IMG/VR virus record: IMGVR_UViG_3300044729_002271
Span: 1 to 33,622 of that record
DNA: 33,622 nt
DNA from: a virus
Direction: 5' to 3' (one strand)
In this document: positions 5,185 to 28,151 of the stretch, in pieces
How the letters are laid out: each line of letters opens with the position of its first letter
Numbering within the stretch: the stretch's first letter is position 1
Made by a program: the position numbers and the translations under genes
The notes under the pieces: model-generated
The model's input: only the letters and a program-made list of their open reading frames with translations
What the model was told of the DNA's origin: nothing
The model's database searches: none

Positions 5185-8100
5185 ATGAGCCAAACCCCCT
5201 CCACGCTCGGCCGCCCCATTTTCGATGCGGGCACCGTCGAGCCCGACACTCGCCCGTCGCCGGCGATGCTGCGTGAGCGAGCCGCCCAGCGTGAGCAGGC
5301 CACCCGCGACGCACGCGAGGGCCGCTCGTTCATCTCCGACCTCATGGAGAGCGAGTTCATCGGCGGCGCGGCATCGCTCTCGCCCCTGGCCGCGGTGGCT
5401 CAGATCGTCACCCAGAAGCCCGGCGGGTTCGGTTCCATCGGCCGCTACCTCACGCGCGAGTACCCCACCGACATCGACCCAAACTTCCGCCTCGACAAGC
5501 CCATGCTTGAGATGCTCACTGAGGGGCTCCCCGAGGATTACTGGGACGCCTTCGGTTCGGCTCGCAGCCTTGAGCACGCGGGCCGCATCCGCGAGGAGCT
5601 TGTCAGCCTCAACCAGTCGCGACAGAACATCGCCAGCTACGGCTACACCGGCGCGGTCGCATCCTTCGCGGCCAACGTCCTCGACCCCGTCAACGTCGCC
5701 ACCGGGTACGTTTCGGGCCCCTTTGCCGCCGCTTCCAAGGGAACGCGACTCGCGCGACTCCTTCGCGGCGGGCTCGTGTCGGCAGCCGCCACCGCACCCG
5801 TCGAGTCGATTCGGCTCATGGGTGATCCAGAAATGGACGCCACCGATATCGCGTGGGCGGTCGGTGGGGCGTTCGCCATCGGTGGCGGCGTCAGTGCCAT
5901 CCTTGGCGGCGGCGAGCTCCAGAAGGCAGGCAGGCGGCTCCAGTTGGCCGCCGATGCAGAGGCCGCCAAGCGGGCGGGATTGCCCCTCACGCCCAAGGGT
6001 GAGAAGGTCATGGGCCGCATCACCGGCGCCCTCGACAGCGACCCCATCGACGTGGAGTGGGCCGACATGGCCCCGGACACGCGGCTCCTCGCCCAGCGTG
6101 AGGCGGCCGAGGCCAAGACGGCAGAGGCAGCAGGCCGCCGGCTCAAGGGCTTGCCTCCCGGCGAGGCTCCAAAGGCCACAGGAGCGGCCGAGACGCCCAC
6201 CCCACCCAGCGACACCCCCCCAGCCGGCGAGACCTTCGACGACGCCTTCAAGGCCGCCGACGGCCCCTCTCGCGGCGTGGGTGCAGCCTCGCCCAACACC
6301 GTCGCCCGCGGCGTCCCCGACGCCCCTGCAGGCCGCCTCGCTACCGACTTCAACCTCGACCCGGCGATGAACGCAGACGCCGGCGCCAAGGGCCGCACGT
6401 TCCTCGACTGGCTTCGCTGGGGCATCGCTGGCCAGAGCATCCAGAGCGAGTCACCCTTCGTCCGCCTTACCGCCGACCGATTGGTTGAGAATGTGCTTCT
6501 GGATGCCCAGGGCGCGCCCGTCACCTTCTCGGCCAGCGAGGCCGCCAGCCGCGTCTTCAAGACCTCGTTCGGAATGTTCACCAAGGACTACGACGGCAAC
6601 TTCTCGGCGTGGGCCAAGGCCAAGGGGTACAACCTCCTCTCGCGCGAGTATGGATGGCAGGCGCGCCGCGACTTCGGCCGTGAGGTCGGCATCGCCGTCC
6701 GCCACGCCCCCGGCACCTACACGCAGGACGCCGCCGTCAACGCCGCGGCCGACCGCGTCCGAGCACTCAACAAGGAGATGCTTGAGTTCGGCAAGCGTAT
6801 GGGCATCGCGGGCTTTGAGACCATCGAAGAGAACCCCCAGTACCTCATGCGCGTCTTCGATCAGGGCGGCATCAACCGCGTCATGAACACTAAGGGTGTG
6901 GGCATCAAGAAGGTCCAGCGGCTGATCGCCGAGTCGATTTACAAGACGCGCGGGGCCAACTCCACCCTCTCCGCACGCGACGCCGTCCGCATCGCCAAGG
7001 GCTACCTCGACAACATCCTCAAACAGCAGAACCTCAGCGACCTCGACAAGTCCCTCATGCTCTCCTCTGACAAGGCCGACGTGCTCAAGCAGGGGATGAT
7101 CAACGCGGGGCTCGGCGCCGACGAGGCCGAGGACGTGCTCAAGCGGGTCGGGCTTCGCAAGGATGGCGACTCGCCCATGGCCCGGGCGAAGTTCCGCCTC
7201 GACCTTGATGAAACCCACAGCTACACCTTCAACGGGCCCGACGGCAAGCCGATCACCATCTCGATCACCGACCTCCTCGAAAACGACGCGATGGAGATCA
7301 GCCGCAACTACACCCGCCAGATGGCCGGCGCCGGCGCAATGGCCGAGGTCTTCCGAGTCTCGGCCCGAGCACCCGACGACATCATCACCTCCACCGCCGA
7401 GATCCTCCGGCGTGCCGAGCAGGAGCTTGACGAGTACGGTGTCTCCAAGGCGCGGCAGGCGTTCATTCTGAACCGCCTCGACACCGCCATGAAGAGCGTG
7501 CTTGGCATCCCCCTTGGCAAGAACGGTGCCTTCGCCCACACGCTTAGGTCCGCCCGCGGCCTCAACTACCTTGTCCGCGCAGGCCAGTTCGGCTTTGCTC
7601 AAGCCGCCGACGTGGGCAGCGTGCTCGCCAACAGCACCATGAAGGCGATGGTCAACTCGATCCCCGTGCTGCGCGACATCGCCAAGCAGATGATCGACGG
7701 CACCGCCTCCCCTCGGTTCCTAGACGAGCTCGAAGAGCTCTGGGGGCTCGGCCTCGACCGCCGCCTCAACCCCGTCACCAGCAAGTTCGACGACGCCGGC
7801 TCCTTCGCCGAGTACGCGGGCCTCAACCGCGTCGACCGCGCGATTGAGACCGGCAAGCGGACTTTGTCGGACCTCTCGGGCCTCGCACCCGTCAACATCA
7901 TCCTCCAAAAGTGGGCCGGCGCCAACGCCGTCAACACCTGGATCGACATCGCTGGCAGCGGCAGGCTCCCCAGTGCGGCACGCCTCGCGTCGATGGGGCT
8001 CGACGAGAAGATGGGCCAGCGGATCATCAACCAGCTCAGCAACCCCAACATCGTCGAGACCGTCGACGGTTTGTTGGGCCGCCGCGTCAAGGCGATCAAC

Positions 8101-8784
8101 GAGAGCAAGTGGACCGACCGCGAGGCCTTCGCCGCCTTCGTCGTCGCCGTGGACAAGTGGTCCCGCCGCGTGGTGCAGCAGAACGACATCGGCCAGATGG
8201 CCCCGTGGATGACCACCGACGCCGGCCGCACGCTGGTTCAGTTCCGATCCTTCGCCGTCGGTGCGTGGGAGAAGCAGCTCCTCTTCAACGCACAGCAGGC
8301 AGACGGCAGGGCCTTCGCCGCGGCGACGATCCCGATGTTCTTTGGCGGCCTCTCCTACATGGCCATGACGTCGATCAACTCGGTCGGCCGCAAGGACGCC
8401 GAGAAGTACCGAAAGAACATGCTCAGCTGGGAGAAGGTCGGCAAAGCCGCCTTCGCCCGCGGCGGCTTCTCCAGCATCATCCCCATGGCCGTCGACACCC
8501 CCCTCTCGTGGATGGGCTACGACCCCGTCTTCTCCTTCGCCCGCACCAGCGGCATCGAGAGTGACCCCCTCTTCGGCAACCCCACCCTCACCGCCTTCTG
8601 GGAAGGCAAGAACGCCGCGCGGATGCTCAGGGCTCCCCTTGAGTCCGACTACTCCTTTAGCCAAGAGGACATGCGGTCCCTTCGCAGCATCCTCCCCTTC
8701 CAGAACCTCACCGGCATCCGAAACGGCCTCGATGCCATCCAGACCCGCTTGCCCAAGCGCAGCGAGAAGGGCTTTCAGCGATGA
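5185..8784 (+). CDS. Internal virion protein D-like (T7 gp16 position), without visible transglycosylase domain
   Basis: A 1199-residue protein, close to T7 gp16 (1318). Size, position before terminase genes and long helical regions fit the large core/ejection protein. Residues about 270-370 form a Pro/Ala/Thr-rich linker (TPTPPSDTPPAGETFDD region). Unlike T7 gp16, the N-terminus does not show a lytic transglycosylase catalytic Glu with the usual SLT motifs; it begins MSQTPSTLGRPIFDAGTVEP and continues with alanine-rich helices and hydrophobic segments (near residues 150-250). The C-terminal third has FAVGAWEKQLLFNAQQ and FQNLTGIRNGLDAIQ. Its stop overlaps the TerS start (ATGA). Confidence 0.7.
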   Translation: MSQTPSTLGRPIFDAGTVEPDTRPSPAMLRERAAQREQATRDAREGRSFISDLMESEFIGGAASLSPLAAVAQIVTQKPGGFGSIGRYLTREYPTDIDPNFRLDKPMLEMLTEGLPEDYWDAFGSARSLEHAGRIREELVSLNQSRQNIASYGYTGAVASFAANVLDPVNVATGYVSGPFAAASKGTRLARLLRGGLVSAAATAPVESIRLMGDPEMDATDIAWAVGGAFAIGGGVSAILGGGELQKAGRRLQLAADAEAAKRAGLPLTPKGEKVMGRITGALDSDPIDVEWADMAPDTRLLAQREAAEAKTAEAAGRRLKGLPPGEAPKATGAAETPTPPSDTPPAGETFDDAFKAADGPSRGVGAASPNTVARGVPDAPAGRLATDFNLDPAMNADAGAKGRTFLDWLRWGIAGQSIQSESPFVRLTADRLVENVLLDAQGAPVTFSASEAASRVFKTSFGMFTKDYDGNFSAWAKAKGYNLLSREYGWQARRDFGREVGIAVRHAPGTYTQDAAVNAAADRVRALNKEMLEFGKRMGIAGFETIEENPQYLMRVFDQGGINRVMNTKGVGIKKVQRLIAESIYKTRGANSTLSARDAVRIAKGYLDNILKQQNLSDLDKSLMLSSDKADVLKQGMINAGLGADEAEDVLKRVGLRKDGDSPMARAKFRLDLDETHSYTFNGPDGKPITISITDLLENDAMEISRNYTRQMAGAGAMAEVFRVSARAPDDIITSTAEILRRAEQELDEYGVSKARQAFILNRLDTAMKSVLGIPLGKNGAFAHTLRSARGLNYLVRAGQFGFAQAADVGSVLANSTMKAMVNSIPVLRDIAKQMIDGTASPRFLDELEELWGLGLDRRLNPVTSKFDDAGSFAEYAGLNRVDRAIETGKRTLSDLSGLAPVNIILQKWAGANAVNTWIDIAGSGRLPSAARLASMGLDEKMGQRIINQLSNPNIVETVDGLLGRRVKAINESKWTDREAFAAFVVAVDKWSRRVVQQNDIGQMAPWMTTDAGRTLVQFRSFAVGAWEKQLLFNAQQADGRAFAAATIPMFFGGLSYMAMTSINSVGRKDAEKYRKNMLSWEKVGKAAFARGGFSSIIPMAVDTPLSWMGYDPVFSFARTSGIESDPLFGNPTLTAFWEGKNAARMLRAPLESDYSFSQEDMRSLRSILPFQNLTGIRNGLDAIQTRLPKRSEKGFQR

Positions 8785-9125
8785 GTGACCAGCACGACGA
8801 AGACCACGGCAGCCTCGAATCGCTCAGGAGCGACACCGCCGAGCTTCTGGACGGCTACCTCTACAAGCTCTTGAAACAGGGCGGCATCCGCATCCAAGTG
8901 ACCGACGAGGAGGGCAACGCGAAGGTCGAGATGATCGACCTGACCGCCGCCATGCTCAACGTGATCCGCCAGCGCGTGAAGGACCTCAAGCTCGGTGGCC
9001 TCGCCGTCGAGGGCTCCAGCACAGCCGACCTGATCAAGAAGGCCGAGAGCCGCATGAAGTTCGCAGGCAAGGCCATCCAACTCCCACCCGTCAACACCCG
9101 CGACGACGACGCAGCGACCGCCTAA
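8781..9125 (+). CDS. Terminase small subunit-like (T7 gp18 type)
   Basis: A 114-residue acidic protein immediately upstream of the large terminase, the normal place for TerS. The centre reads as helix, short beta turn, helix: LLKQGGIRIQVTDEEG followed by AAMLNVIRQRVKDLKLGGL. The LN-IRQR-KD stretch is what I associate with T7-type DNA maturase A subunits. It overlaps the gp16-like gene by 4 nt. Its role would be to recognise concatemer DNA and regulate TerL. Assigned by context and weak sequence similarity. Confidence 0.75.
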   Translation: MSDQHDEDHGSLESLRSDTAELLDGYLYKLLKQGGIRIQVTDEEGNAKVEMIDLTAAMLNVIRQRVKDLKLGGLAVEGSSTADLIKKAESRMKFAGKAIQLPPVNTRDDDAATA

Positions 9126-9140
9126 ACCACCCTGTCACAC

Positions 9141-10895
9141 ATGAGCCAAGCCGCCGACCTGATCAAGCGACTGCGCGATGATCCGGTCTTCTTCGCCGAG
9201 CAAATCTGGCAGGACCGCAACCTCAACCGCTACGCCCCGCTCGGCGACGAAGAGAAGGACATCATCCGCTTCGCCGCCGGCGTGGCCCTCCCCAACAAGT
9301 TCCGCGGCGTCCTCGCACCCCGCAAGATCGGCAAGACCCACTTCGGCACCGCCATCCTCGCCCTCTGGCGACTCTTCCGCGACGCCGACCGCCGGATCCT
9401 GATCGTCAGTAAGTCGCAGGGCGAGGCCAAGAAGACCGTCAAGCTCCTGCGCGACTGGATCGACACGATCTGGTTCCTCCAGCACCTTCGCCCCGGGCCC
9501 AGCCAGCGTGACAACCGCGACATGTTCGACGTGGGGCCAGCCTCCCCGAACCGTCAGGCCAGCGTCACCGCGATGGGCATCGACGGCCAGCTCCCCGGCA
9601 ACCGTGCCCACACGATCATCCCCGACGACGTCGAGACCCCATCCAACACCGAGACCTTCGACGCCCGCACGAAGCTGGACGAGGCCGTCAAAGAGTTCAA
9701 GTTCATCCTCTACGGCGAGCTCCCCACCGACACGCCCGAGGAGAAGACCTCCACCGACCCCACCGAGATCGTCTACATCGGCACCTACCACCACGAGGAG
9801 AGCCTCTACCTCAAGCTCGCCGAACGTGGCTACCTCTTCCGCTCCTGGCCCATCCTCTACCCACGCCGCGACCAGGACATCCTGAACCTCGCCCCGCTCA
9901 TTCAAGGACGCCTTGACCGCGGCGAGAAGAAGCCCGGCGACATCGTCTTTGCCCACCGCTTCGACCGCGTCGCCATCGCCGACCTCGAGGCCGAGGGCGC
10001 CCGCTCCTTCGGCATGCAGTGCATGCTCGTCAAGAACATGGGCGAGGTCAACCGCTACCCGCTCAGGCTCTCCGACATCATGGTCCTTGACCTCGATCCC
10101 CGCAAGGCCCCCGCAAGCCTGACGTGGGGCAAGAGCGACGCCAACGGCTCCACGGCCATCACCGACATCCCCAGCCTTGGGTTCGGCACCGACCGCTTCC
10201 ACAGGCCCGTCTTTATCGACCGCGACTACGTCCCCTACGGCCCCACGATCATGTTCGTGGACCCATCCGGCCGCGGCGCCGACAACACGGGCGTCGCCAT
10301 CGGCAGCCTCATCAACGCCACCATCTACGTCCGCCACGTCAAGGGCTACCCAGGCGGCTCCACCGCCGAAGCCATGCAAGAGCTCGCCCTCGCCGCCGCA
10401 CGCTTCCGCATCAACCGCCTCATCATCGAGGACAACTTCGGACGCGGCATGTTCCAGCAGCTCCTAGAGCCCGTCGTCCAGTCCCTCTTCGTCAAGGCCG
10501 GCGACGACCCAACCACTCCCGACGGGTGGGCCTGCAGCGTCGAGAGCGTCAACGCCACGGGCCAGAAGGAACTGAGGATCATCGACACGCTCGAGCCCGT
10601 GCTCGGCAACCACCGCGTCTGCTTCGACCGGGCGGTAGCGGCGAACACCGACCTGCAGCACCAGATCACCCGCATCACCCGCCAGCCCAAGTGCCTCAAG
10701 CACGACGACGAACTCGATGCCCTCGCCGGCTTGGTCAAGGCCTTCCAGCAAGACCTCGCCAGCGACCCGCGTGAGATCCGCCGCCGCCAAGAGGCCGACG
10801 AACTCCTCCAAGAGTCGCTGGCCTTCGCCCGCGAATGCGGCCTCATGGACTCCTCAGACACCGTCATCCACCATCGCGGATTCACCCGAAAGTGA
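9141..10895 (+). CDS. Terminase large subunit (T7 gp19 type)
   Basis: A 584-residue protein, nearly the length of T7 gp19 (586). The packaging ATPase is marked by a Walker A APRKIGKT at residues 59-66 and a Walker B with catalytic acid IIPDDVE at about 159-165. The C-terminal RNase H-like nuclease has MFVDPSGRG with the first metal Asp near 374, IIEDN near 430 and HDDELDALA near 521-529. It would cut concatemers and pump DNA through the portal encoded at 31708. It starts 15 nt after TerS; there is no strong Shine-Dalgarno before the ATG. All key residues are present. Confidence 0.95.
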   Translation: MSQAADLIKRLRDDPVFFAEQIWQDRNLNRYAPLGDEEKDIIRFAAGVALPNKFRGVLAPRKIGKTHFGTAILALWRLFRDADRRILIVSKSQGEAKKTVKLLRDWIDTIWFLQHLRPGPSQRDNRDMFDVGPASPNRQASVTAMGIDGQLPGNRAHTIIPDDVETPSNTETFDARTKLDEAVKEFKFILYGELPTDTPEEKTSTDPTEIVYIGTYHHEESLYLKLAERGYLFRSWPILYPRRDQDILNLAPLIQGRLDRGEKKPGDIVFAHRFDRVAIADLEAEGARSFGMQCMLVKNMGEVNRYPLRLSDIMVLDLDPRKAPASLTWGKSDANGSTAITDIPSLGFGTDRFHRPVFIDRDYVPYGPTIMFVDPSGRGADNTGVAIGSLINATIYVRHVKGYPGGSTAEAMQELALAAARFRINRLIIEDNFGRGMFQQLLEPVVQSLFVKAGDDPTTPDGWACSVESVNATGQKELRIIDTLEPVLGNHRVCFDRAVAANTDLQHQITRITRQPKCLKHDDELDALAGLVKAFQQDLASDPREIRRRQEADELLQESLAFARECGLMDSSDTVIHHRGFTRK

Positions 10896-10940
10896 CAGAT
10901 TTGGCTCCTTCCAACAAGTCAAGGTCCGCCGGAGACTTCA

Positions 10941-11828
10941 ATGCCAGCCACGAAGACTGTGCCGTTCAAGTTCCGGCAGACATCGCCGGGCGCCATCCGC
11001 GTCGAAGTCCCCATCGACAGCGTCGTCAACTGGGAGCAGTGGTTCCTGCTTCGCTCCGACGTCCACTGGGACAACCCCAAATGCCACCGAGACCTCGAAT
11101 ACAAGCACCTCGAACAAGCCCTTGACCGCCGGGCGGGCATCATCGACGCTGGCGACCTCTTCTGTGCCATGCAGGGCAAGTACGACAAGCGCAGCGACAA
11201 GCGGAGCATCCGCCCCGAGCACTGCGAGGGTGAGTACATCGCCTCCCTCTACCGCACCGCCGCGGACTACTACCGCCCATTCGCCCACAACTTCATCCTC
11301 ATGGGCCAGGGCAACCACGAGACGGCCGTCTACAAGAATCACGAGTTCAACCTGACCGCCCACCTCGCCGAGCGGCTCAACACCCTCACAGGCTCAGAGA
11401 TCATCGCCGGCGGCTACACGGGCTGGATCGCCTTCGCCTTCGACTACCAGGGCCGCCGGATCACCAAGAAGCTCTGGTACACCCACGGCTACGCCGGCGG
11501 CGGCCCCGTGACCAAGGACACCATCCAGCTCCACCGCCAGATGACCTACGTCGAAAACGCCGACTTCGTCCTCTCGGGCCACACCCACGACGCATGGCAG
11601 ATGGAATACACCCGCCTGCGACTCACCGACCTTGGCGAGATCGAGCGGCGGCCTTGCATCGGCATCAAGTGCCCCACCTACAAGGACGAGTACGGGATCG
11701 GCGAGGGGGGCTTTGCCGTCGAGAAGGGCCACCCACCCAAGCCTCTTGGCGCGTGGTGGCTCAAGTTCACCGCCTCATCGGGTGACAACAAGACCATGAT
11801 CCACTGCGACGTGATCCGGGCAACGTGA
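10941..11828 (+). CDS. Calcineurin-like metallophosphoesterase
   Basis: A 295-residue protein with the complete metallophosphoesterase signature: SDVHW (D40, H42), DAGD (71-72 GD), GNHE (124-127), THGY (H182) and GHTHD (213-216). These residues bind two metals and hydrolyse phosphoesters; the substrate cannot be read from sequence. The N-terminal 30 residues form a short beta-rich extension. It follows TerL by 45 nt with GGAG upstream of ATG, so it is in the late block. Possible roles are nucleic-acid end processing or nucleotide hydrolysis after infection. I recall such genes beside terminases in some marine podoviruses. Confidence 0.9.
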   Translation: MPATKTVPFKFRQTSPGAIRVEVPIDSVVNWEQWFLLRSDVHWDNPKCHRDLEYKHLEQALDRRAGIIDAGDLFCAMQGKYDKRSDKRSIRPEHCEGEYIASLYRTAADYYRPFAHNFILMGQGNHETAVYKNHEFNLTAHLAERLNTLTGSEIIAGGYTGWIAFAFDYQGRRITKKLWYTHGYAGGGPVTKDTIQLHRQMTYVENADFVLSGHTHDAWQMEYTRLRLTDLGEIERRPCIGIKCPTYKDEYGIGEGGFAVEKGHPPKPLGAWWLKFTASSGDNKTMIHCDVIRAT

Positions 11829-11857
11829 AAGCATTGTTTACCAGTTGAGGTGCACCC

Positions 11858-12151
11858 ATGACCACCGCCGCCACAGACACGCCCACGCCGCCCGACCCCG
11901 AGAAGCCCAAGGTCCGGCGGAAGAAGGACGCCGGCGAGGCGTGTGCCCCGTTCCTCGACCCCGTCGCACACGCCATGTCGATCCTCTCCGAGCACTTCGG
12001 CTGCGTGGTCCTGCTAGTCCGCCTCTCCCGCGGCACCACCGTCATGGACCTGCGTGCCCTCCACGGCAGCGAGACAGACATCCAGGCCGCCTTGCTGCGT
12101 GCAGGATCAGAGCTGTGCGACCACGAAGCAGAGGAAGAGGATGAGGAGTAG
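11858..12151 (+). CDS. Small hypothetical protein at end of late block
   Basis: A 97-residue protein: a Pro/Lys-rich N-terminus (TPPDPEKPKVRRKKDA), a hydrophobic amphipathic middle (HAMSILSEHFGCVVLLVRL, residues 38-56) and a strongly acidic end (EAEEEDEE). The family is not recognised. The middle is too polar for a convincing membrane helix. It is the last gene before the large non-coding stretch; its stop lies 1 nt before the twin hairpins at 12153. It is probably expressed with the metallophosphoesterase. Confidence 0.65.
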   Translation: MTTAATDTPTPPDPEKPKVRRKKDAGEACAPFLDPVAHAMSILSEHFGCVVLLVRLSRGTTVMDLRALHGSETDIQAALLRAGSELCDHEAEEEDEE

Positions 12152-12152
12152 A

Positions 12153-12198
12153 GCAACCAAATCTGGTTGCTTTGGCAAATGCAACCGAATCCGGTTGC
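12153..12198. repeat. Twin hairpins GCAACC(R)-AATC-(Y)GGTTGC
   Basis: Two inverted repeats lie 28 bp apart start to start: 12153-12170 (GCAACCA, AATC, TGGTTGC) and 12181-12198 (GCAACCG, AATC, CGGTTGC). The stems differ by one compensatory pair (A-T to G-C), while the AATC centre is identical and not itself symmetric. This favours RNA hairpins, although paired protein-binding sites are possible. They begin directly after the last late gene. Confidence 0.8.
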
Positions 12199-12226
12199 AT
12201 TGAGGCCGCAACTCAGGGTTTTTGCC

Positions 12227-12254
12227 GGGCTTATGGCAACATTGCCATAAGCCC
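12227..12254. repeat. Dispersed palindrome, copy R2
   Basis: A perfect inverted repeat with 13-bp arms (GGGCTTATGGCAA and TTGCCATAAGCCC) and centre CA. The right flank is a C run, as in R3 and R4. It is the last element of the late block before the non-coding stretch. As RNA it would be a very stable hairpin, but no T run follows, so it is not a classical intrinsic terminator. Confidence 0.9.
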
Positions 12255-12289
12255 CCCCTACCGTCTAGCACCCAGACCATATCCAGACA

Positions 12290-12430
12290 AAGTGTAAACC
12301 TACGTCCTTACAGAATAAGTACGCTGTCCTATCAGAAGCCTTCTGTACGGTACCTAAATTTTGAGCGAGTTTTTGGCCCAAAACCAAAATCTTCCAGATT
12401 TCCAAAAAAAGTGCCGCGTTTTTAGAGCAG
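12290..12430. other. AT-rich stretch in non-coding region
   Basis: This segment is clearly richer in A and T than its GC-rich surroundings, with several A or T runs of five to seven (for example TTTTT at 12370-12374 and an A7 near 12404) and a small inverted repeat TTTTGG/CCAAAA (12371-12389). No convincing gene or good promoter pair was seen. Beside a palindrome cluster it could be a DNA-unwinding element of an origin. That is inference only. Confidence 0.45.
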
Positions 12431-12496
12431 GAGAGGTTCACAAAACTACACATTCTTGACTCCCATCCCGCAGGGGCTACCTTGGCGTAAGATAAA

Positions 12497-13114
12497 ACCG
12501 TCTTCGCAGCTCGCGCAGCGCAGCGGAGAAGCGGAGAAGACGGTGGCCCGTCAGGGCCACGCTCACGCAGCCTCGCTTTTCTCGACTTGACCTACACGGT
12601 CGATGTCCACACGACATCCAATGACACGACCGAGCGACCCCTCACGGTGAAAGCCGTCGAGGGGAGGTTGACCATGCAAAGGTAGTGAAAGGTAGTTTGG
12701 GCAAAACTACCTCGAAGGGGCTGACGGGGAGAGTGGCCAAAATGTTGTGCCGGGAACTGACGAGGGGGTCGTCGACATCGAACGTCCACGCGACTACCCC
12801 CCTGGGGGGGGTCAACTGACGGACGCGAGGCTACGCCAGACGATGGTAAGCCACCCAACGCACACGACTTACGCTCACGTGAGCCTCGCACCTGTGCCAA
12901 TCGCTGGCACAGTGCACGCAAAGGGTAGCGAAAGGGGTGGGAAAGGCTCACGCAAGCGCATCGGACGACGCACCGCTCGCCTCGCTCGCTTGCTCTCTCA
13001 CCTACCTACTCACCCACTCGCTCACTCACCACCCACCACCATGGTGGCTCGCTCGAGTGGCTCACTACCTGGTAGTGCTCGAGCTTGGCTCACTCTCTAT
13101 CTATAGATGAGCCA
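12497..13114. other. Palindrome-dense non-coding region (candidate origin, control region or structured RNA)
   Basis: A series of perfect or near-perfect inverted repeats fills this stretch: ACCGTCTTC/GAAGACGGT (12497-12544); GTGGCCC-gtca-GGGCCAC (12543-12560); CCCCTCACGG with CCGT-c-GAGGGG (12638-12664); AGGTAGTTT/AAACTACCT (12690-12712); ACCCCCC/GGGGGGT (12796-12812); GCTCACGTGAGC (12873-12884); CTGTGCCA-atcgc-TGGCACAG (12892-12912); CCACCATGGTGG (13036-13047); GCTCGAG/CTCGAGC enclosing CACTACC/GGTAGTG (13051-13084); and TGGCTCA/TGAGCCA (13086-13114) around ATCTATAGAT. Between 12960 and 13140 there is also low-complexity CTCGCT/CTCACC repetition. No open frame here has a ribosome site or protein-like composition. 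Confidence 0.75.
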
Positions 13115-13140
13115 CTCACCCACTCGCTCCCCCAGCTATT

Positions 13141-13202
13141 TTGACAATCTCTACAGATATTCTATGAATCTAGTTGACGGATGTAGCCGATTGTGGTACT
13201 CT
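13141..13202 (+). promoter_or_regulatory. Two candidate sigma70-type promoters before DUF932 gene
   Basis: TTGACA (13141-13146), 16 nt, TATGAA (13163-13168). A second pair overlaps downstream: TTGACG (13174-13179), 17 nt, TACTCT (13197-13202). Initiation from the second would begin at about 13208, exactly where the CTGACA hairpin starts. These are the best host-type promoters I see and would serve the early genes before phage RNA polymerase is made. The second -10 is weak. Confidence 0.5.
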
Positions 13203-13203
13203 G

Positions 13204-13250
13204 TGGTGCCAGTGCTGACACGCTGGCCAACCAAAGGGCTACGAAAGCCC
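13204..13250 (+). promoter_or_regulatory. CTGACA-loop leader, copy E (before DUF932 gene)
   Basis: The hairpin is GCCAGTG (13208-13214), loop CTGACA (13215-13220), CGCTGGC (13221-13227). The stem is fully paired as RNA if one G-U pair is counted. TGGT (13204-13207) and ACCA (13230-13233) extend it across a 2-nt bulge. A second hairpin GGGCT-acgaa-AGCCC follows (13236-13250), then AGAAAGGG and the ATG at 13268. Confidence 0.7.
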
Positions 13251-13267
13251 ATAGAAAGGGACCAGCA

Positions 13268-14218
13268 ATGCTCGATACGCTCATTTCTCGCTCGTTCGCT
13301 CCCTCGTCCGTCACGACCGATCCCTACGCGCTCGCTCGCTTCGCGCTGCGCACCGAGCCCGTACGCTCGGTGAGTGGCGCAGATGTCCCCAACGCTCGCG
13401 CCGTCATTCGCGAGGATACGGGCGTCGCGCTCGCTTGCGTTGGTTCGCGCTACGTCCCCATCCAGTCGGCCGACGCGATCGAGCTCGCTCACTCGCTCGC
13501 CGACGGGCTTGGCTTGGGATCGGCCCGCGTCCAGGTCCTTACTGGTGGCGCCGATGTCGTGATTGAGCACAAGGGAGAGGAAAGCAAGGTCGGATCGGAC
13601 GTGCTGAGGCGCGTCGTCACCGTTCGCACCAACAACACCGGCCGCGCTCCCCTCACCGCATCCGCGGGTGTTTGGCGCAAGGTATGTTCGAACGGGCTCT
13701 TCCTTCCCATCGGCCGCCAGACGTCGATTCGCATCCGTCACACTGCATCGGGCGCCGATCGGGTGAAGATGCTCGGTCGGATGCAAAGGGATATCCAGGC
13801 AAGCCAAGAGACGGGCACCGAGACGATCCTGCGCCTCATGGCTCGCCGAATCGACCACAAGGGTGGGGAGCTGCGCGACTTCTACTCCCAGATCATGCCA
13901 ACGCCGGCCGCGGCCGATGCTGGCGCGACCATCGCTCAGATTCGCGAAGTACAGGAAGAGACTCAGAGGATCATGGCCATCCGTCGCGATTGGGCGGGTA
14001 CTTTCCTGAGGGAGCTCGACGCGCGGGATGCTGGATCGGCCGATGGGCCCAACGCCTGGCTCGCTCTCAACTCCGTCACCAACTGGGCCCAGCATCGGAT
14101 GCCAATCCGCGGCGAGCGTCAGAATCGCGAGCGCCGCGCCTACTCCAATCTCCCGGGTGGCGCTGGCGCCGAGCTCACCGAGCGAGCTTGGTCGGTTGCG
14201 GCGGCCATGGTCAACTAA
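13268..14218 (+). CDS. DUF932 domain protein
   Basis: A 316-residue protein. Its size and pattern (VGSRYVPIQSADAIELAHSLADGL near residues 56-80, GADVVIEHKGE, a conserved-looking VWRKVCSNGLFLP near 137-149, then a helical C-terminal half) are those of the DUF932 or phage/plasmid-like family; the molecular function of this family is not established. AGAAAGGG precedes the ATG by 7 nt; this start is chosen over an upstream alternative because of that site. It is the first gene after the non-coding region, with its own candidate promoter, CTGACA leader and terminator, so it may be an immediate-early gene. Codons of the GCTCGC type are frequent here compared with the late genes. Confidence 0.8.
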   Translation: MLDTLISRSFAPSSVTTDPYALARFALRTEPVRSVSGADVPNARAVIREDTGVALACVGSRYVPIQSADAIELAHSLADGLGLGSARVQVLTGGADVVIEHKGEESKVGSDVLRRVVTVRTNNTGRAPLTASAGVWRKVCSNGLFLPIGRQTSIRIRHTASGADRVKMLGRMQRDIQASQETGTETILRLMARRIDHKGGELRDFYSQIMPTPAAADAGATIAQIREVQEETQRIMAIRRDWAGTFLRELDARDAGSADGPNAWLALNSVTNWAQHRMPIRGERQNRERRAYSNLPGGAGAELTERAWSVAAAMVN

Positions 14219-14222
14219 TCGA

Positions 14223-14260
14223 CTCACCCACCCACCCAGGAAACTGGATGGGTGAGGCTT
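14223..14260 (+). terminator. Terminator-like hairpin after DUF932 gene
   Basis: CTCACCCA (14223-14230) pairs with TGGGTGAG (14249-14256), with an inner CCAG-gaaa-CTGG. GCTT follows. The T run is short. The GAGGCTT end is shared with the hairpins at 15861 and 16293. Confidence 0.6.
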
Positions 14261-14276
14261 GCTCGCTGACACGAGC
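14261..14276 (+). promoter_or_regulatory. CTGACA-loop leader, copy D
   Basis: A perfect 5-bp stem GCTCG / CGAGC around CTGACA (14266-14271), 18 nt before the ATG of the next gene, with AGGGAG between. GTGA (14252-14255) and TCAC (14279-14282) may add an outer helix that competes with the preceding terminator hairpin. Confidence 0.65.
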
Positions 14277-14294
14277 TTTCACAGGGAGCTTTCC

Positions 14295-14453
14295 ATGATC
14301 TACTGCGTTTGGTTCATTGTCCAGGGCGAATCGCATTGGATCGGCCGCGCTGCCGATCCCTCCACCGTCGCTGCCATCGTTGGCGAATACCTCAACTTCC
14401 CTGAGTATCGGGGCGCTGAGGTACGCATCGTGCAGGATGGGGGTGCACTTTGA
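14295..14453 (+). CDS. Small hypothetical protein
   Basis: A 52-residue protein, MIYCVWFIVQGESHWIGRAADP and onward, with ribosome site AGGGAG 6 nt before ATG. It reads as a small alpha/beta protein (strand, helix ADPSTVAAIVGEYL, strand AEVRIV). The family is not recognised. It overlaps the next gene at TTGA. Confidence 0.6.
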   Translation: MIYCVWFIVQGESHWIGRAADPSTVAAIVGEYLNFPEYRGAEVRIVQDGGAL

Positions 14454-14788
14454 AGCACGATCACGGACGACGTGGGCACCTCAACCGGACCATTCTGGAC
14501 CAAGACGATGCTGTCACAGGGTATGGAGTGCACGCCCGTGTAGTGGCATTCTGCCCGGACCATGAGGGCATGTACGTGCGGGTAGACCTTGGGCATGGCA
14601 TCCGCAAGGACGATCCTTCATATCCAATCCTGCCCGAACCGACTCCCGCGCAGATTGTCAAGGCTGCCAAGCGCCGTCAGGGTCCGGACCTCAAGGGAGG
14701 ATGGACCATGAAGACTCGCGAGGTATGGCCCTGCGGGACCTCCATCGACTACGTCTTCGTGCCGCGCAAGATTGGGGGTGTCGCGTGA
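14450..14788 (+). CDS. Small hypothetical protein, TTG start overlapping previous stop
   Basis: A 112-residue frame starting at TTG within TTTGA, so translation is probably coupled to the preceding gene. It contains a YPILPEPTPAQIVKAAKRRQGPD segment in the middle. A second internal start at 14708 (MKTREVWPCG) has a strong AGGGAGG site upstream, so a 26-residue product could also be made. Function unknown. The stop overlaps the GTG of the AAA+ gene. Confidence 0.5.
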   Translation: MKHDHGRRGHLNRTILDQDDAVTGYGVHARVVAFCPDHEGMYVRVDLGHGIRKDDPSYPILPEPTPAQIVKAAKRRQGPDLKGGWTMKTREVWPCGTSIDYVFVPRKIGGVA

Positions 14789-15429
14789 TCCCTCTCACCG
14801 AGAAGTACCGCCCAACCACGCTGGATGAAGTGGTTGGCCAGGATGCGGCCGTGGCCAAGCTCCGCCTGATGCTCGCTCGTGGCATCGGTGGGAAAGCGTT
14901 TTGGGTGAGTGGCGCGAGTGGCACTGGGAAGACCACTATCGCGAGGATCCTCGCTCGCGAAGTCGCCGATCCATTCTTCATTCAGGAATACGACGCGGGC
15001 GATCAAGTGAACGCCACCGAGCTCGCCGATATGGATCGCGCGATGAGCCTCACTGCTTGGGGCAAGGGCGGCCGCGCGTGGATCGTCAACGAAGCTCACG
15101 GCATGCGACGGCCGTCCGTCCGAACCATGCTGGGGATCCTCGAGCGCCTCTCCCCTCGCTGCATCGTCGTCTTCACCACTACCAAAGACGGAGAGGCGGC
15201 TCTCTTCGATGACGATATCGACGCGGGCCCCTTGCTCTCTCGCTGCGTGCCGATCCGACTCACCAACCAGGGTCTAGCCAAGGTATTCGCGGATCGGGTT
15301 CGCACAATCGCCGAGTCTGAGGGGCTTGGGGGAGCCTCACCCGATGCCTACGTCAAACTCGCGCAGCGCGTCAAAAACAACGGCCGCGCGATGCTCCAGG
15401 CTGTGGAGTGCGGCGAGCTTGTTGGATGA
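14785..15429 (+). CDS. Clamp-loader-like AAA+ ATPase, short form
   Basis: A 214-residue protein with the N-terminal signature of clamp-loader ATPases (LTEKYRPTTLDEVVGQD, residues 4-20), Walker A GASGTGKT (43-50), a Walker B position reading WIVNEAH (99-105) where Asn replaces the usual Asp, sensor-like VVFTTTK, and the SRC arginine-finger motif of clamp loaders (152-154). It ends after the ATPase core and a short helical lid; the C-terminal collar domain of DnaX or RFC proteins (usual length 320 or more) is absent. The GTG start overlaps the previous stop; a longer frame from 14701 lacks a ribosome site. It may act on host clamp loading, or as a RarA-like remodeller. A following intrinsic terminator ends the unit. 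Confidence 0.8.
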   Translation: MIPLTEKYRPTTLDEVVGQDAAVAKLRLMLARGIGGKAFWVSGASGTGKTTIARILAREVADPFFIQEYDAGDQVNATELADMDRAMSLTAWGKGGRAWIVNEAHGMRRPSVRTMLGILERLSPRCIVVFTTTKDGEAALFDDDIDAGPLLSRCVPIRLTNQGLAKVFADRVRTIAESEGLGGASPDAYVKLAQRVKNNGRAMLQAVECGELVG

Positions 15430-15437
15430 TCTATCTC

Positions 15438-15468
15438 CCCCGAACCGGACACGGTTCGGGGTAGTTTT
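15438..15468 (+). terminator. Intrinsic terminator after AAA+ gene
   Basis: A perfect 9-bp stem CCCCGAACC / GGTTCGGGG with a 6-nt loop, followed by TAGTTTT. It is the clearest intrinsic terminator in this region, 9 nt after the stop codon. Confidence 0.8.
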
Positions 15469-15529
15469 GGCGGTCGCGCTTTCCCCTTCGCTATTCGCGC
15501 AGGGCGCGGCCGCCGTGGGCTGACACCCA
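15469..15529 (+). promoter_or_regulatory. Structured 5' leader, copy A (P1-P2 plus CTGACA hairpin)
   Basis: P1: GGCGGTCGCG (15469-15478) pairs with CGCGGCCGCC (15505-15514), 10 bp with one T-G. Inside is P2: CCC/GGG, a TT/CA internal loop, CGC/GCG and the loop TATTC. One G follows, then P3 TGGG-CTGACA-CCCA (15516-15529), then GAAAGGGA and the ATG at 15545. It aligns without gaps over 65 nt to copy B, with compensatory changes in P1. Confidence 0.8.
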
Positions 15530-15544
15530 ATGAAAGGGACCACG

Positions 15545-15850
15545 ATGCGACTTTCCAAGACCCTGCAGGATGCCGTTCACTTCGCCAACTTCGCCAAGAA
15601 TCACGATATCGCGCCTCTCCACTTGGCTCATCTGATCACGCTCACGAAGCGTGCGTTCGATGCTGGCGAGCGCGAGGCCAACACCGGCAGCGATGCTGCC
15701 GAGAGGCGCGCCGACGCAGCGCGCCGCAAGGTGGAGGGCTTGGCCAACCGACTCGGCTACTCGACTTCGTGGCCAGGGCTCGCGCCGAGCTTCACAATCG
15801 AGAAGGATTCGTCCGCGCCCGGCCGTATCGACTCTCTCCCGATGCTCTAG
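15545..15850 (+). CDS. Small hypothetical helical protein
   Basis: A 101-residue protein, MRLSKTLQDAVHFANFAKNH and onward. GAAAGGGA upstream selects this ATG over one 15 nt earlier. The first 80 residues look all-helical with an Arg/Ala-rich segment (EREANTGSDAAERRADAARR). The family is not recognised. It is a single-gene unit between terminators, with its own structured leader. Confidence 0.6.
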   Translation: MRLSKTLQDAVHFANFAKNHDIAPLHLAHLITLTKRAFDAGEREANTGSDAAERRADAARRKVEGLANRLGYSTSWPGLAPSFTIEKDSSAPGRIDSLPML

Positions 15851-15860
15851 ACCACTCACC

Positions 15861-15893
15861 CGCCCGAGCTCTACCGAGCCCGGGCGAGGCTTT
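15861..15893 (+). terminator. Terminator-like hairpin
   Basis: CGCCCG-a-GCTC-tacc-GAGC-c-CGGGCG: 10 bp with one 1x1 mismatch, followed by AGGCTTT. The CTTT tail is also the first bases of the copy B leader alignment. Confidence 0.7.
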
Positions 15894-15954
15894 GACCCTC
15901 GCTTCTACCCCTTCGCATTCCGCGCTGGGGGCGATGGTTGTGGGCTGACACCCA
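15894..15954 (+). promoter_or_regulatory. Structured 5' leader, copy B (P1-P2 plus CTGACA hairpin)
   Basis: P1: GACCCTCGCT (15894-15903) with GGCGATGGTT (15930-15939), nine of ten positions paired including two G-U. P2: CCC/GGG, TT/CT loop, CGC/GCG, loop ATTCC. P3: TGGG-CTGACA-CCCA (15941-15954), then AGAAAGGGA and the ATG at 15969. Against copy A, the P1 pairs at alignment positions 6/49 (G-C to A-U), 8/47 (G-C to C-G), 10/45 (U-G to U-A) and 14/41 (G-C to U-G) change while pairing is kept. Confidence 0.8.
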
Positions 15955-15968
15955 GAAAGGGATGGACG

Positions 15969-16283
15969 ATGCAAACCCCGACAGAACGCGCCAACACGCT
16001 CGACTACGTGAAGGATCAGATGGGCAAGGGCTTGATGACCGTCGAGCAGGCCAATGTTTACGTGGCTCGCGCGGGTCGCGTTGTGCTTGTGACGACGCGA
16101 CTACCCGCCGCGATTCGCGCGGCCTACGGCAATGCGGTGAAGTCGGGCACTCTGTGCCACGTCAAGAAAGATGGCAATAAGCCCGAGGCGTACTACCACC
16201 CCGATTTCAAGTATCTGGTTGCTGGTGAACGCAACAAGCACGCTGATGCGACGGCCGCGGCGTTGCGGGCGATCATGGCCTAA
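15969..16283 (+). CDS. Small hypothetical protein
   Basis: A 104-residue protein, MQTPTERANTLDYVKDQMGKG and onward. AGAAAGGGA upstream supports this ATG over one at 15962. The middle has VVLVTTRLPAAIRAAYGNAVKSG and a basic VKKDGNKPEAYYHPDFKY stretch, suggesting a small nucleic-acid-associated protein, which is inference from composition. The family is not recognised. It is a single-gene unit with structured leader and terminator. Confidence 0.65.
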   Translation: MQTPTERANTLDYVKDQMGKGLMTVEQANVYVARAGRVVLVTTRLPAAIRAAYGNAVKSGTLCHVKKDGNKPEAYYHPDFKYLVAGERNKHADATAAALRAIMA

Positions 16284-16292
16284 CCCTCACCC

Positions 16293-16322
16293 CGCCGCGC
16301 CTCACCAGGCCCGGCGAGGCTT
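16293..16322 (+). terminator. Terminator-like hairpin
   Basis: CGCCG-c-GCCT-cacc-AGGC-c-CGGCG, 9 bp with one mismatch, then AGGCTT. It has the same architecture as the hairpin at 15861 with different stem bases. Confidence 0.65.
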
Positions 16323-16413
16323 CGCTATCGGCGCTGTGTGGCGTCGTTGTAGGTTGAAAGCCCCGAGCCCTCTGACAAGGGTGGTTCTCGGGGCAGGGAC
16401 CAGCTCGCGCTGG
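16322..16413 (+). promoter_or_regulatory. Divergent structured leader, copy C
   Basis: Bases 16321-16358 align without gaps to copies A and B from P2 to the P3 loop (CTTCGCTAT..GCGC shared with A; TTGAAA in place of CTGACA), but P1 is lost to the upstream terminator. A separate hairpin follows: GCCCCGAG (16360-16367), CCCT, CTGACA (16372-16377), AGGG, TGGTT bulge, CTCGGGGC (16387-16394). Then comes CCAGC-tcgc-GCTGG (16400-16413), AGGAG, and the ATG at 16425. Confidence 0.6.
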
Positions 16414-16424
16414 CAGGAGATCAT

Positions 16425-16628
16425 ATGCCCAAGGTACGCACAGAGGTGACACTGAACGTGCTCATCGAACTCGGCACGCTCGACAAGGCCAAGCGGCTGG
16501 CCGAAGTGCTCTCACTCATCCATGGCCACCGCGTGACGCGGCCCTACGCCATCGACAAGGCCATCACGGAGGCTCTAGGCCGCGCTGATGCGACCCTTGC
16601 GGAGATGAAGGGGAAGGCCCATGAGTGA
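16425..16628 (+). CDS. Small protein before integrase (possible excisionase or ribbon-helix-helix)
   Basis: A 67-residue protein with strong AGGAG upstream. The layout is a short strand (TEVTLNVLIELG), helix (LDKAKRLAEVLSLIHG), then a second helix (AIDKAITEALGRADATL). This could be a ribbon-helix-helix or a recombination directionality factor; neither is proven. It overlaps the integrase start by 8 nt, so the two are made together. Confidence 0.6.
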   Translation: MPKVRTEVTLNVLIELGTLDKAKRLAEVLSLIHGHRVTRPYAIDKAITEALGRADATLAEMKGKAHE

Positions 16629-17739
16629 TGTTCAACTGCACAAGAATGGCGAGTATTGGCTCGCTCGCTGGCGTGACTCATCGCGCCGGCGGCGAGCCAA
16701 ATCGTTGGGGCCCATCGAGTCGATGAGCCGGGCGGCGGCACTGCGCGCGTGCCGTGAGATCCAGGCCAAGATGATCATCGACCCGGGTGCGAAGGACCGC
16801 GGCCGCGCCCCAACGCTCGGCCAGTGGCGTGATTCGTACTTCGAGCAGCGGGACGACATCAGCGACCTCACCCGCGTGCTTCACCAGCAGACAATCCGGC
16901 TCCTCGTTGAGTTTGCTGGCGAGGGGCTCAGGCTCGACAGGTTCACCAGGACCATGGCGATGGACTGGCGGAAGGAGATGGGGACCAAGGTGGGGCCGGC
17001 AACCGTCGCCAAGCACATCCGCAACGCCAAGGTCTTCTTCTCGTGGGCTCAGCGTCAGGATCTAGTCGCCGTCAACCCCTTTGACCGCATCAGCGGCACG
17101 GCGCCGAAGGTCGCGCACGACTGGAGGGAAGTCACGCACGCCGACGCCGAGAAGATGCTCGAGCACGCACCCACCGCACAGTGGCGATGCCTGATCGCGC
17201 TGTGCCGATGGGCCGGCCTTCGCAGAGGGGAGGCCTTGCGGCTGGCGTGGGGTGACGTTGACTTCGTTGGGAAGACCATCCGCGTGGTCCCAGAGCTGCG
17301 CCATGGCTCTAGGACTGTGGGGACGAAGCAAGGGCCACCACGAGCCGTTCCGATCCGCCCGTCGCTCCTGACGGTCCTACAGGCCGCCCACGACGAAGCG
17401 GAGGACGGGAGCCGCGGGCCGTGTGCCGAGATGCCCGGAATCGGCAACCTTGACAGGGACGCCGAGCGGCTAGCCATCCGTGCGGGCGTAGGCGCCTACG
17501 CCAAGCCCTTCCACACCCTTCGCAAGTGCTGCGAGTCGGAGTGGATGCGAGACTACCCAGCGATGGACGTTTGCAAGTGGATGGGCCACTCGGCACAGGT
17601 GGCGGCCGAGCACTACCACCGGCCGAGCGAGGCATCGGTCTCGCGCGTGACCAGCGGCAAGACTCAGGACCAGACCATCGCCGAGCTGCAGGCCGAGCTG
17701 GCTCGGCTTCGTGCTCGCGAAACTGTCTCCACAAGTTAG
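16621..17739 (+). CDS. Tyrosine recombinase / integrase
   Basis: A 372-residue protein. The N-terminal arm-binding part is followed by a SAM-like core-binding domain (about 65-150) and the catalytic domain. Catalytic residues visible: Arg in WAGLRRGEA (about 200), HTLR (His about 298, Arg about 301), GHS (about 322), and the nucleophile Tyr in EHYHR (about 332). The order CRWAGLRRGEALRL-WGDVDF, then HTLRKCCESEW, then WMGHSAQVAAEHY is what I associate with planctomycete integrases. A leucine-rich helix (TIAELQAELARLRARE) ends the protein. It would integrate the phage into the host chromosome; attP was not identified with certainty. It overlaps the preceding gene by 8 nt. Confidence 0.93.
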   Translation: MSDVQLHKNGEYWLARWRDSSRRRRAKSLGPIESMSRAAALRACREIQAKMIIDPGAKDRGRAPTLGQWRDSYFEQRDDISDLTRVLHQQTIRLLVEFAGEGLRLDRFTRTMAMDWRKEMGTKVGPATVAKHIRNAKVFFSWAQRQDLVAVNPFDRISGTAPKVAHDWREVTHADAEKMLEHAPTAQWRCLIALCRWAGLRRGEALRLAWGDVDFVGKTIRVVPELRHGSRTVGTKQGPPRAVPIRPSLLTVLQAAHDEAEDGSRGPCAEMPGIGNLDRDAERLAIRAGVGAYAKPFHTLRKCCESEWMRDYPAMDVCKWMGHSAQVAAEHYHRPSEASVSRVTSGKTQDQTIAELQAELARLRARETVSTS

Positions 17740-17785: not shown

Positions 17786-17817
17786 GGGGGCATATGGCAA
17801 GGTTGCCATAAGCCCCC
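17786..17817. repeat. Dispersed palindrome, copy R3
   Basis: Arms of 15 bp, GGGGGCATATGGCAA and TTGCCATAAGCCCCC, centre GG, one mismatch. It is 46 nt after the integrase stop. The outer G-C pairs are longer than in R1, R2 and R4. The 17740-17964 gap also holds TGTAGA/TCTACA (17847-17864), a possible recombinase core site; otherwise I see nothing there apart from the promoter below. Confidence 0.9.
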
Positions 17818-20864: not shown

Positions 20865-21671
20865 ATGCAAATCGACCCACTTTCCACCGCCTTTCCAGCG
20901 ATGGACGACGACGACTACGCGCACCTTCGCGACTCGATCAAACGCTACGGCGTGCGTGAGCCCGTCGTGACCTTTGAGGGCCGCATCATCGACGGCAGGC
21001 ACCGATGGCGTGCGTGCGAGGAGCTTGGCATCGAGTGCCCGACCGTCGAGTGGGATGGTGAGGGTTCGCTGATCGACTTCGTCATCGACAAGAACGTCCA
21101 CCGTCGCCACCTCACCCCCTCACAGCGCGCGGCAGCCGCGGCGAGGTTGATGCCGATGTTCGAGGCTGAGGCAGCGAAGCGAAAGCACCACGCCGCCGAC
21201 GCCGACATGGACGACGCGGGCCCAGCACGCGAGAAGGCAGCGAAGGCGACAGGCGCGTCGGCCCGCATGGTGCAGGACGCCATTCGAGTTGAGCGTGAAG
21301 ATCCGAAACTCTTGGATCAGGTTGTGGCCGGCGAGATCAGCGTCACATCGGCAAGGCTCAAGCTCCCGCCGCCGCCAGTCAAGAAGCGTGAGCGTGACGA
21401 GATCAGCGAGGCCATCGACCGAGCCGACGAGTTCAACGAGATCGCTCGCTCGATCCACGAGATCAAGCACCAGGTGCAGGCCATCGCAACGCAGGCCATC
21501 GGACGCGAGCTTCGCATCCAGCACATCGAGGCCCACCTTGAGAACGCGGCGACGTCGATCAGGCACGCGGCGCCACACGCGCGGTGCGAGTGCAAGGGTG
21601 CGAACGAGAAGTGTGCAGCGTGCCAGGGCATGGGGTGGGTGACGAAAGAACAAAAGGCGAGGCAGGGATGA
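20865..21671 (+). CDS. ParB/Spo0J-type nuclease-domain protein with C-terminal zinc cluster
   Basis: A 268-residue protein. The ParB N-terminal domain is marked by LRDSIKRYGVREPV and the IIDGRHRWRAC motif (41-51). Next comes a helical part with RRHLTPSQRAAAAARL and a probable helix-turn-helix (AAKATGASARMVQDAIRVE). The C-terminus carries CEC, KCAACQGMGW (four Cys in about 20 residues), a probable zinc site of the DnaJ-like type. Phage ParB-like proteins act as CTP-dependent or nuclease-type DNA-binding proteins; which applies here is unknown. CCGGAGAA precedes the ATG. It heads the next transcription unit after three terminator-like hairpins. Confidence 0.85.
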   Translation: MQIDPLSTAFPAMDDDDYAHLRDSIKRYGVREPVVTFEGRIIDGRHRWRACEELGIECPTVEWDGEGSLIDFVIDKNVHRRHLTPSQRAAAAARLMPMFEAEAAKRKHHAADADMDDAGPAREKAAKATGASARMVQDAIRVEREDPKLLDQVVAGEISVTSARLKLPPPPVKKRERDEISEAIDRADEFNEIARSIHEIKHQVQAIATQAIGRELRIQHIEAHLENAATSIRHAAPHARCECKGANEKCAACQGMGWVTKEQKARQG

Positions 21672-25519: not shown

Positions 25520-25722
25520 ACGACACCTACTCGTGCACCGTCACCATCAAGACCGTCCGCAACGGCCTCGAATCTGTGACGACGCGAAGCACTGGCTCAG
25601 ATCAGTTTCACGAGCTCGACACCGTTACGCGAGCGTGCCTTGATCACTATGGCCCGCAAGTCACCCGCGACATCGGCCGGCAGATGGTGGAAGAAGCAGA
25701 AGAGAGGATGGCCCGCGAATGA
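25516..25722 (+). CDS. Small hypothetical protein
   Basis: A 68-residue frame from a GTG overlapping the previous stop. Strands CTVTIKTVRNG and ESVTTRSTG, then a helix (QMVEEAEERMARE). Its stop overlaps the helicase start (ATGA). Not recognised. Confidence 0.55.
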   Translation: MNDTYSCTVTIKTVRNGLESVTTRSTGSDQFHELDTVTRACLDHYGPQVTRDIGRQMVEEAEERMARE

Positions 25723-27930: not shown

Positions 27931-28151
27931 TCGTCGTCGCGCTCGTGTGGCTCCCCACCACGCCGCCTCGCCCGGCACCGGCGATTATGACCGAAGATGA
28001 GGTGTGTGTCATGCTCAGCATCACCGGGCGGTGCCTTCGTGCCTACCACGACGGAGGCAGGCTCCGCGGGTTCCGTTGCGGCCGCACGCTCCGCTGGAAG
28101 CTCACCGACATCCTCGCCTTCGCCGACGCACAGAAGGAACTCAAGCCATGA
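27867..28151 (+). CDS. Helix-turn-helix DNA-binding protein (excisionase-like)
   Basis: A 94-residue protein with a Pro-rich N-terminus and a C-terminal MerR/excisionase-type domain: MTEDEVCVMLSITGRCLRAYHDG (helix-turn-helix), then GRLRGFRCGRTLRWKLTDILAFAD (wing), residues about 40-90. This pattern (tee-va--L-is-r-l-r----G-l-g-r-G---rw---di--f) is typical of HTH_17 proteins. As it sits directly before the RNA polymerase gene with a 4-nt overlap, it may regulate that gene or act as an excisionase for the distant integrase. Both are inference. Confidence 0.8.
   Translation: MPDDLFGTEPAPTPTAPSQDVIVVALVWLPTTPPRPAPAIMTEDEVCVMLSITGRCLRAYHDGGRLRGFRCGRTLRWKLTDILAFADAQKELKP

Follow-up and report, generated by a model that had tools for sequence, protein, structure and literature searches.

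The IMG/VR virus record IMGVR_UViG_3300044729_002271 (33,622 bases; its full length is the window analyzed here) encodes protein families of a T7-type phage, and its early genes are preceded by small hairpins with the constant loop CTGACA (CUGACA in the transcript). Five such hairpins, C1 to C5, lie just 5' of the ribosome sites of genes 13268, 14295, 15545, 15969, and 16425 (slots 1 to 5), and there are no others in the window. We interpret the hairpin as an RNA element that acts in cis from the 5' leaders of early-block genes, and it is very probably a conserved RNA structure with a constant loop. An earlier note, made from the letters of the window, had described five CTGACA hairpins with differing stems, each followed by a ribosome site; all five were found, including one G-U pair in C1, and a Shine-Dalgarno (SD) sequence and an ATG follow every one of them. 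The coordinates, with stems in base pairs (bp), are given below; L052 is a related contig that was found by a search with the clamp-loader protein of the phage.

13208..13227, + strand: hairpin C1, GCCAGTG-CTGACA-CGCTGGC, 7 bp with one G-U, leader of gene 13268
13255..13261, + strand: SD AAAGGGA of gene 13268
14261..14276, + strand: hairpin C2, GCTCG-CTGACA-CGAGC, 5 bp, leader of gene 14295
14283-14288, + strand: SD AGGGAG of gene 14295
15516..15529, + strand: hairpin C3, TGGG-CTGACA-CCCA, 4 bp, leader of gene 15545 (SD at 15533-15539)
15941..15954, + strand: hairpin C4, TGGG-CTGACA-CCCA, 4 bp, leader of gene 15969 (SD at 15956-15962)
16360..16394, + strand: hairpin C5, CCCT-CTGACA-AGGG (16368-16381) within GCCCCGAG/CTCGGGGC, leader of gene 16425
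16415-16419, + strand: SD AGGAG of gene 16425

The word CTGACA itself is not over-represented in the window (13 found vs. 16 expected). Paired flanks of at least 4 bp were present at five of the 13 sites, all of them in the leaders and all on the + strand, with the remaining eight having stems of 0-3 bp only. CTGACA is also the commonest hexaloop on the + strand of the window; no other 6-nucleotide (nt) hairpin loop is common to the five leaders, and in dinucleotide shuffles of these leaders (n = 5000) no loop was common to more than two of them. A covariance model scored the five leaders at 23.0-26.6 bits and the next-best place in the window at 12.5; since the model was built from these same copies, it is the gap and not the score that is informative. 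The C3 and C4 leaders are 73% identical over 64 nt, and these two copies are evidently related by duplication, leaving four independent contexts. A pairing of the loop with another part of the leader was also sought, and no constant partner was found in the five leaders.

Covariation and gene exchange in a related contig

L052 and the window share 97.5% identity over 8781-13272 and differ beyond, and L052 carries three CTGACA hairpins at the boundaries homologous to slots 1, 2, and 3. Its slot 1 hairpin, TCCCTCG-CTGACA-CGAGGGA, aligns with C1 without gaps and with an identical loop (6/6). The stem arms are identical at 3/8 and 4/8 positions (7/16, 44%), yet 7 bp pair in both phages, three pairs having changed on both sides and one having gone from U-G to C-G, whereas identity is ~80% in the remaining leader sequence (32/39) and in the promoter stretch (50/64). 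On this alignment, change has been faster in the slot 1 stem than in the sequence around it, although the stem remains paired; what has been conserved is the loop and the base pairing. The slot 2 hairpin is identical in the two phages, and slot 3 of L052 (at 6813) has the same hairpin as its counterpart in the window, 5' of an unrelated DUF3560 gene.

When the seven distinct copies are compared, each of the five stem pairs has changed on both sides. Of the cells, 94% are paired (vs. 55% in shuffled sets) and 14 are compensatory, against a shuffled mean of 4.7 and with 0 of 500 shuffles reaching this count; the pairing vanishes when slid. The covariation that the earlier note had proposed looking for is thus present in the comparison with L052, where the slot 1 stem is almost wholly replaced and still paired. 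Because C3 and C4 are duplicates and the controls take no account of relatedness, the claim is carried mainly by slot 1 and the four unrelated contexts. Varying arms around a constant centre are the reverse of an operator, which argues against a DNA site, as the earlier note had judged. The comparison lends good support to the view that the element acts as a single strand with its loop under selection, and not as an operator or promoter in duplex DNA.

Between 13268-16283 of the window and 5554-7988 of L052, genes have been exchanged with sharp borders, and the leaders and 3' hairpins have been kept. The DUF932 gene of slot 1 is replaced in L052 by an unrelated gene of 97 amino acids (aa), the 101-aa gene of slot 3 is replaced by DUF3560, and the 112-aa gene at 14450 is missing. 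The CTGACA element thus belongs to the slot and not to the gene; because the genes of slots 1 and 3 differ while their leaders persist, it is not linked to a particular protein or to a gene regulating itself.

The early block and its companion structures

The early block (13.2-16.6 kb) is flanked by the terminase side and the integrase, a position that the early genes also occupy in a syntenic relative, L075. It contains the following features.

13174..13202, + strand: predicted host sigma70-type early promoter, TTGACG-17-TACTCT, read from the sequence
13268..14218, + strand: early gene 1, DUF932 protein (97-aa gene in the L052 slot)
14295..14453, + strand: early gene 2, 52-aa protein, 94% identical in L052
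14450: 112-aa gene
14788..15429, + strand: clamp-loader-like AAA protein
15545..15850, + strand: early gene, 101 aa, no family (DUF3560 in the L052 slot)
15969..16283, + strand: early gene, 104 aa, without known function, with relatives in Pseudomonas phages
16425..16628, + strand: 67-aa gene immediately 5' of the integrase

Transcription is predicted to start near 13209, at the base of C1. The promoter was not scored by a generic promoter scan; its layout is kept in L052 (TTGCGT-17-TACCAT), and the first early gene of L075 is preceded by TTGATT-16-TACGAT. The block is probably one transcript from this promoter at ~13174, because in slot 2 hairpin C2 starts 3 nt after the end of a companion hairpin (A, ending at 14257), which leaves no room for a promoter. 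A promoter consensus for the phage polymerase was not found in the intergenic regions, and a search for relatives of the DUF932 protein found none. With a single host-type promoter, the transcript is predicted to begin with C1, and the other C hairpins would belong to intercistronic modules, in which a 3' hairpin from the gene before is followed, in some slots after a further structured stem, by C; the distance from C to the SD ranges from a few nt to about 35 nt. The companion structures are as follows.

13236..13250, + strand: hairpin D, GGGCT-acgaa-AGCCC, between C1 and the SD
14227..14257, + strand: hairpin A at the end of gene 13268 (6 bp, 1x1, 4 bp, 4-nt loop, bulged A, 2 bp)
15438..15461, + strand: canonical terminator-like hairpin, 10 bp, TAGTTTT tail; L052 counterpart with a changed stem
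15469..15514, + strand: hairpin B, outer stem around CCCTTCGC-n5-GCGCnGGG
15859..15889, + strand: hairpin A, same geometry as the 14227 copy, other stem sequence
15894..15939, + strand: hairpin B, second copy, with compensatory outer-stem changes relative to the 15469 copy
16290..16319, + strand: hairpin A, shorter variant (slot 5)

In three leaders of the window and in slot 2 of L052, the first structure is hairpin A, which has a nearly fixed geometry and a GG CUU end; 6 of its 12 pairs have changes on both sides, and ~0.69 Mb of fetched sequence contained no further instance of its exact geometry. The earlier note had placed terminators before four of the five leaders, which holds only for 15438-15461 with its U-rich tail, while the structures at 14227, 15859, and 16290 are this distinct hairpin, ending in aGGCUU and without a U-run. 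Hairpin B (~16 bp with an asymmetric internal loop) is present in slots 3 and 4 and in slot 3 of L052, and hairpin D reads GGCCT-actaa-AGGCC in L052, with one pair changed on both sides.

Breadth of the element and the phage that carries it

The earlier note had expected the element in related phages and in planctomycete genomes, and it was met in one further contig only, L052; it was not found in the T7-type relatives L047, L074-L076, and L083-L088. The covariance model, run against 392 Planctomycetota genomes, gave a best E of 0.002 per genome and no more matches at E<=0.5 than chance (~196), and the best matches that were fetched were mostly not 5' of genes. In IMG/VR, the pattern GGGCTGACACCC-N-AAAGG returned 45 stretches with ~7 independent leader-located cases, one per contig, and no more CTGACA leader hairpins; a wider family drawn from these matches was rejected, as a rough chance estimate gives about the same number. 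The pattern CTGACA-N-AAAGGGACCA-N-ATG returned 17 stretches, with a convincing stem only in L052. Rfam 15 gave no match near the gathering threshold for the window or the region, and a literature search for CUGACA loops yielded nothing relevant.

Other structured leaders were seen in relatives. L075 has hairpins 5' of its early-gene SDs with no common loop (by eye), and L053, a 51 kb record with a clamp-loader relative of 54%, carries eight exact copies of the palindrome TTTCGCCAATTGGCGAAA (at 5288, 5718, 7390, 7659, 19093, 21576, 29477, and 40523), the first four directly before an SD and ATG. Leaders with structure may thus be a recurrent feature of the early genes in this phage group, and the CTGACA version would be that of a single lineage.

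The remainder of the genome was assigned by protein family, with the following features outside the early block.

5185-8784: internal virion protein
9141-10895: large terminase
16621-17739, + strand: tyrosine integrase
20865-21671: ParB-like protein
25719-27368: helicase
28004-30670, + strand: full-length T7/mitochondrial-type single-subunit RNA polymerase
31708-33309: head-tail adaptor

The polymerase has RPOL_N and RNA_pol domains and matches T7 RNA polymerase at an E of about 5e-67, and the N4 virion polymerase was absent from its matches. The integrase is of an ordinary phage kind, and L075 has a syntenic relative of it. An integrase (16621-17739 in the window) and a T7-type RNA polymerase (28004-30670) occur together in this phage, a layout that L075 shares. 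The virus is probably a temperate T7-type phage of Planctomycetota. This host is suggested because the clamp-loader protein has a 55% relative in one Planctomycetota metagenome-assembled genome and because related terminases occur in 4 of 392 genomes of that phylum (~31-37% by tblastn; 35-41% by the search tool).

A near-perfect 26-28 bp palindrome, GGCTTATGGCAAnnTTGCCATAAGCC(CCCC), occurs in four copies (2968-2993, 12226-12253, 17788-17814, and 31018-31043): one follows the late block, one follows the integrase, one lies between structural genes, and one, inside an open frame, is near the RNA polymerase gene. L075 carries another palindrome at the two matching places (11728 and 15575). The four window copies are candidates for terminators used by the phage polymerase or for protein sites. 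Directly 3' of the last late-block gene, at 12160-12200, are two more hairpins, GCAACCAAATCTGGTTGC and AATGCAACCGAATCCGGTTGCATT, and the ~1 kb at 12152-13170, nearly the same in L052, is without convincing genes and has many GCTC/CACC repeats and palindromes (e.g., CTCGAGTGGCTCACTACCTGGTAGTGCTCGAG); it is possibly a genome-end or control region.

Explanations of the constant loop

A constant loop on free stems is best explained by a stem that merely presents the loop and a trans-acting factor, most likely a phage or host RNA-binding protein, that reads CUGACA in the early leaders, an account for which we see the chances as evenly balanced. Such a factor would handle the early messages as one set, via translation or via the stability or processing of their 5' ends. 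The phi21 boxB hexaloop CUAACC is a protein-read UMAC (GNRA-like) loop (PMC12550061), and CUGACA could plausibly take the same GNRA-like form, a likeness that we offer as a lead only. Small hairpins near the SD are also the operators of phage translational repressors (MS2 and PP7 coat proteins, T4 gp43), where loop-specific recognition is the same principle as that proposed here; the difference is that here five genes share the hairpin and no repressor is known. The earlier note had likened the leaders to start-associated repeats of mycobacteriophages. In Cluster K, start-associated sequences (SAS) and extended SAS (ESAS) are repeats of unknown function that immediately precede the start codons of some non-structural genes, SAS being a constant 13-bp asymmetric sequence, GGGATAGGAGCCC, that includes the SD, and ESAS adding 17-bp inverted repeats with conserved arms (PMC3203893). 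The functional likeness stands, as a repeated element just 5' of the start codons of a gene subset, whereas the sequence features do not carry over: the GGGATAGGAGCCC feature is absent, the five leaders have only CTGACA and a separate SD in common, the SD is outside the element, the arms vary and covary, and only the loop is constant.

Several points count against a reader of the loop. No binder is known, UGAC is not a strict UMAC loop, and the 4-bp stems are weak (-3.9 kcal/mol) and compete with other folds. C5 is the weakest member, as its 6-nt-loop register is not the predicted optimum and a shifted register with a GACA loop is favoured. The covariation controls, as noted, ignore the relatedness of the copies, and the element is not conserved on a longer scale, because T7-type relatives with terminases ~31-47% identical lack it and only one relative carries it.

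A binder would be dispensable if, in a polycistronic early transcript, A guarded the upstream 3' end, cleavage fell in or near B, and C capped the new 5' end, with the loop kept by exchange between slots. Structures do stand at the gene boundaries of this T7-type early block, as RNase III sites do in the T7 early region; A has no U-run, C2 follows A too closely for a promoter to fit between, B has the length and internal loop given above, and the C1 stem of L052 has a core (CTCG/CGAG) like that of slot 2, as exchange between slots might produce. We nevertheless find this explanation unlikely: RNase III needs longer stems than the 4-7 bp of the C hairpins, no long double-stranded stems are present except possibly B (which slot 2 lacks), a mere cap needs no constant hexaloop on a changing stem, and exchange would have carried the stem too. 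Antitermination in the manner of lambdoid nut sites, with an arginine-rich N-like phage protein reading the hairpins so that host RNA polymerase passes the early terminator-like hairpins, would suit the position of C1 in the leader at the predicted transcript start and of the others after terminator-like hairpins. It would also suit the short stem and the constant loop, similar in length and sequence to those of boxB (phi21 CUAACC hexaloop, P22 GACAA pentaloop). It is improbable, however, given that no boxA (CGCTCTTTAACA-like) was seen by eye 5' of the hairpins in the five leaders, that one nut site is normally enough whereas many copies here stand directly before SDs, that a single canonical terminator is present, and that no N-like family was recognized among the early proteins searched, among which a diverged one could be missed.

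Three further explanations have very little probability in our estimation. The phage has its own RNA polymerase, and some relatives of that enzyme are annotated "N4-like," so the hairpins could be DNA hairpin promoters read in the manner of the N4 virion RNA polymerase, or ordinary promoters of a T7-type enzyme; but the enzyme is of the T7/mitochondrial type over its length, the stems vary from 4 to 7 bp without a start motif at a fixed distance, and CTGACA hairpins are absent before late genes. That genes were exchanged between conserved boundary structures beside an integrase gene recalls integron attC sites, in which folded single-stranded DNA would be read by the adjacent tyrosine integrase. 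Here, however, no RYYYAAC (R'') or GTTRRRY (R') boxes frame the boundary structures by eye, the integrase is an ordinary one, its syntenic relative being in L075, a phage with early genes lacking the sites, and homologous recombination at shared leaders suffices. Lastly, a riboswitch-like switch, in which hairpin C and an SD-hiding fold were mutually exclusive, would agree with the somewhat higher SD access with C formed in slots 1 and 2 (conditional fold sampling, shortest stretch), but no consistent effect was seen in slots 3, 4, and 5, nor in slot 1 with coding sequence included, and no Rfam family matches.

Returning to a factor that reads CUGACA, the hairpins may belong to an undescribed phage RNA regulon in which a dedicated RNA-binding protein reads the loop as a tag on every message of the exchangeable early slots and incoming genes come to share post-transcriptional control once they are in a slot, a possibility that we advance tentatively. 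If true, a single post-transcriptional control would cover a plug-in block of early genes in the phage and would regulate any gene that recombined in, and the constant hexaloop on a free stem would be one half of a new compact RNA-protein recognition pair, of a kind useful as a tethering tool. The element would then come from phages of Planctomycetota, a phylum in which phage biology is little known.

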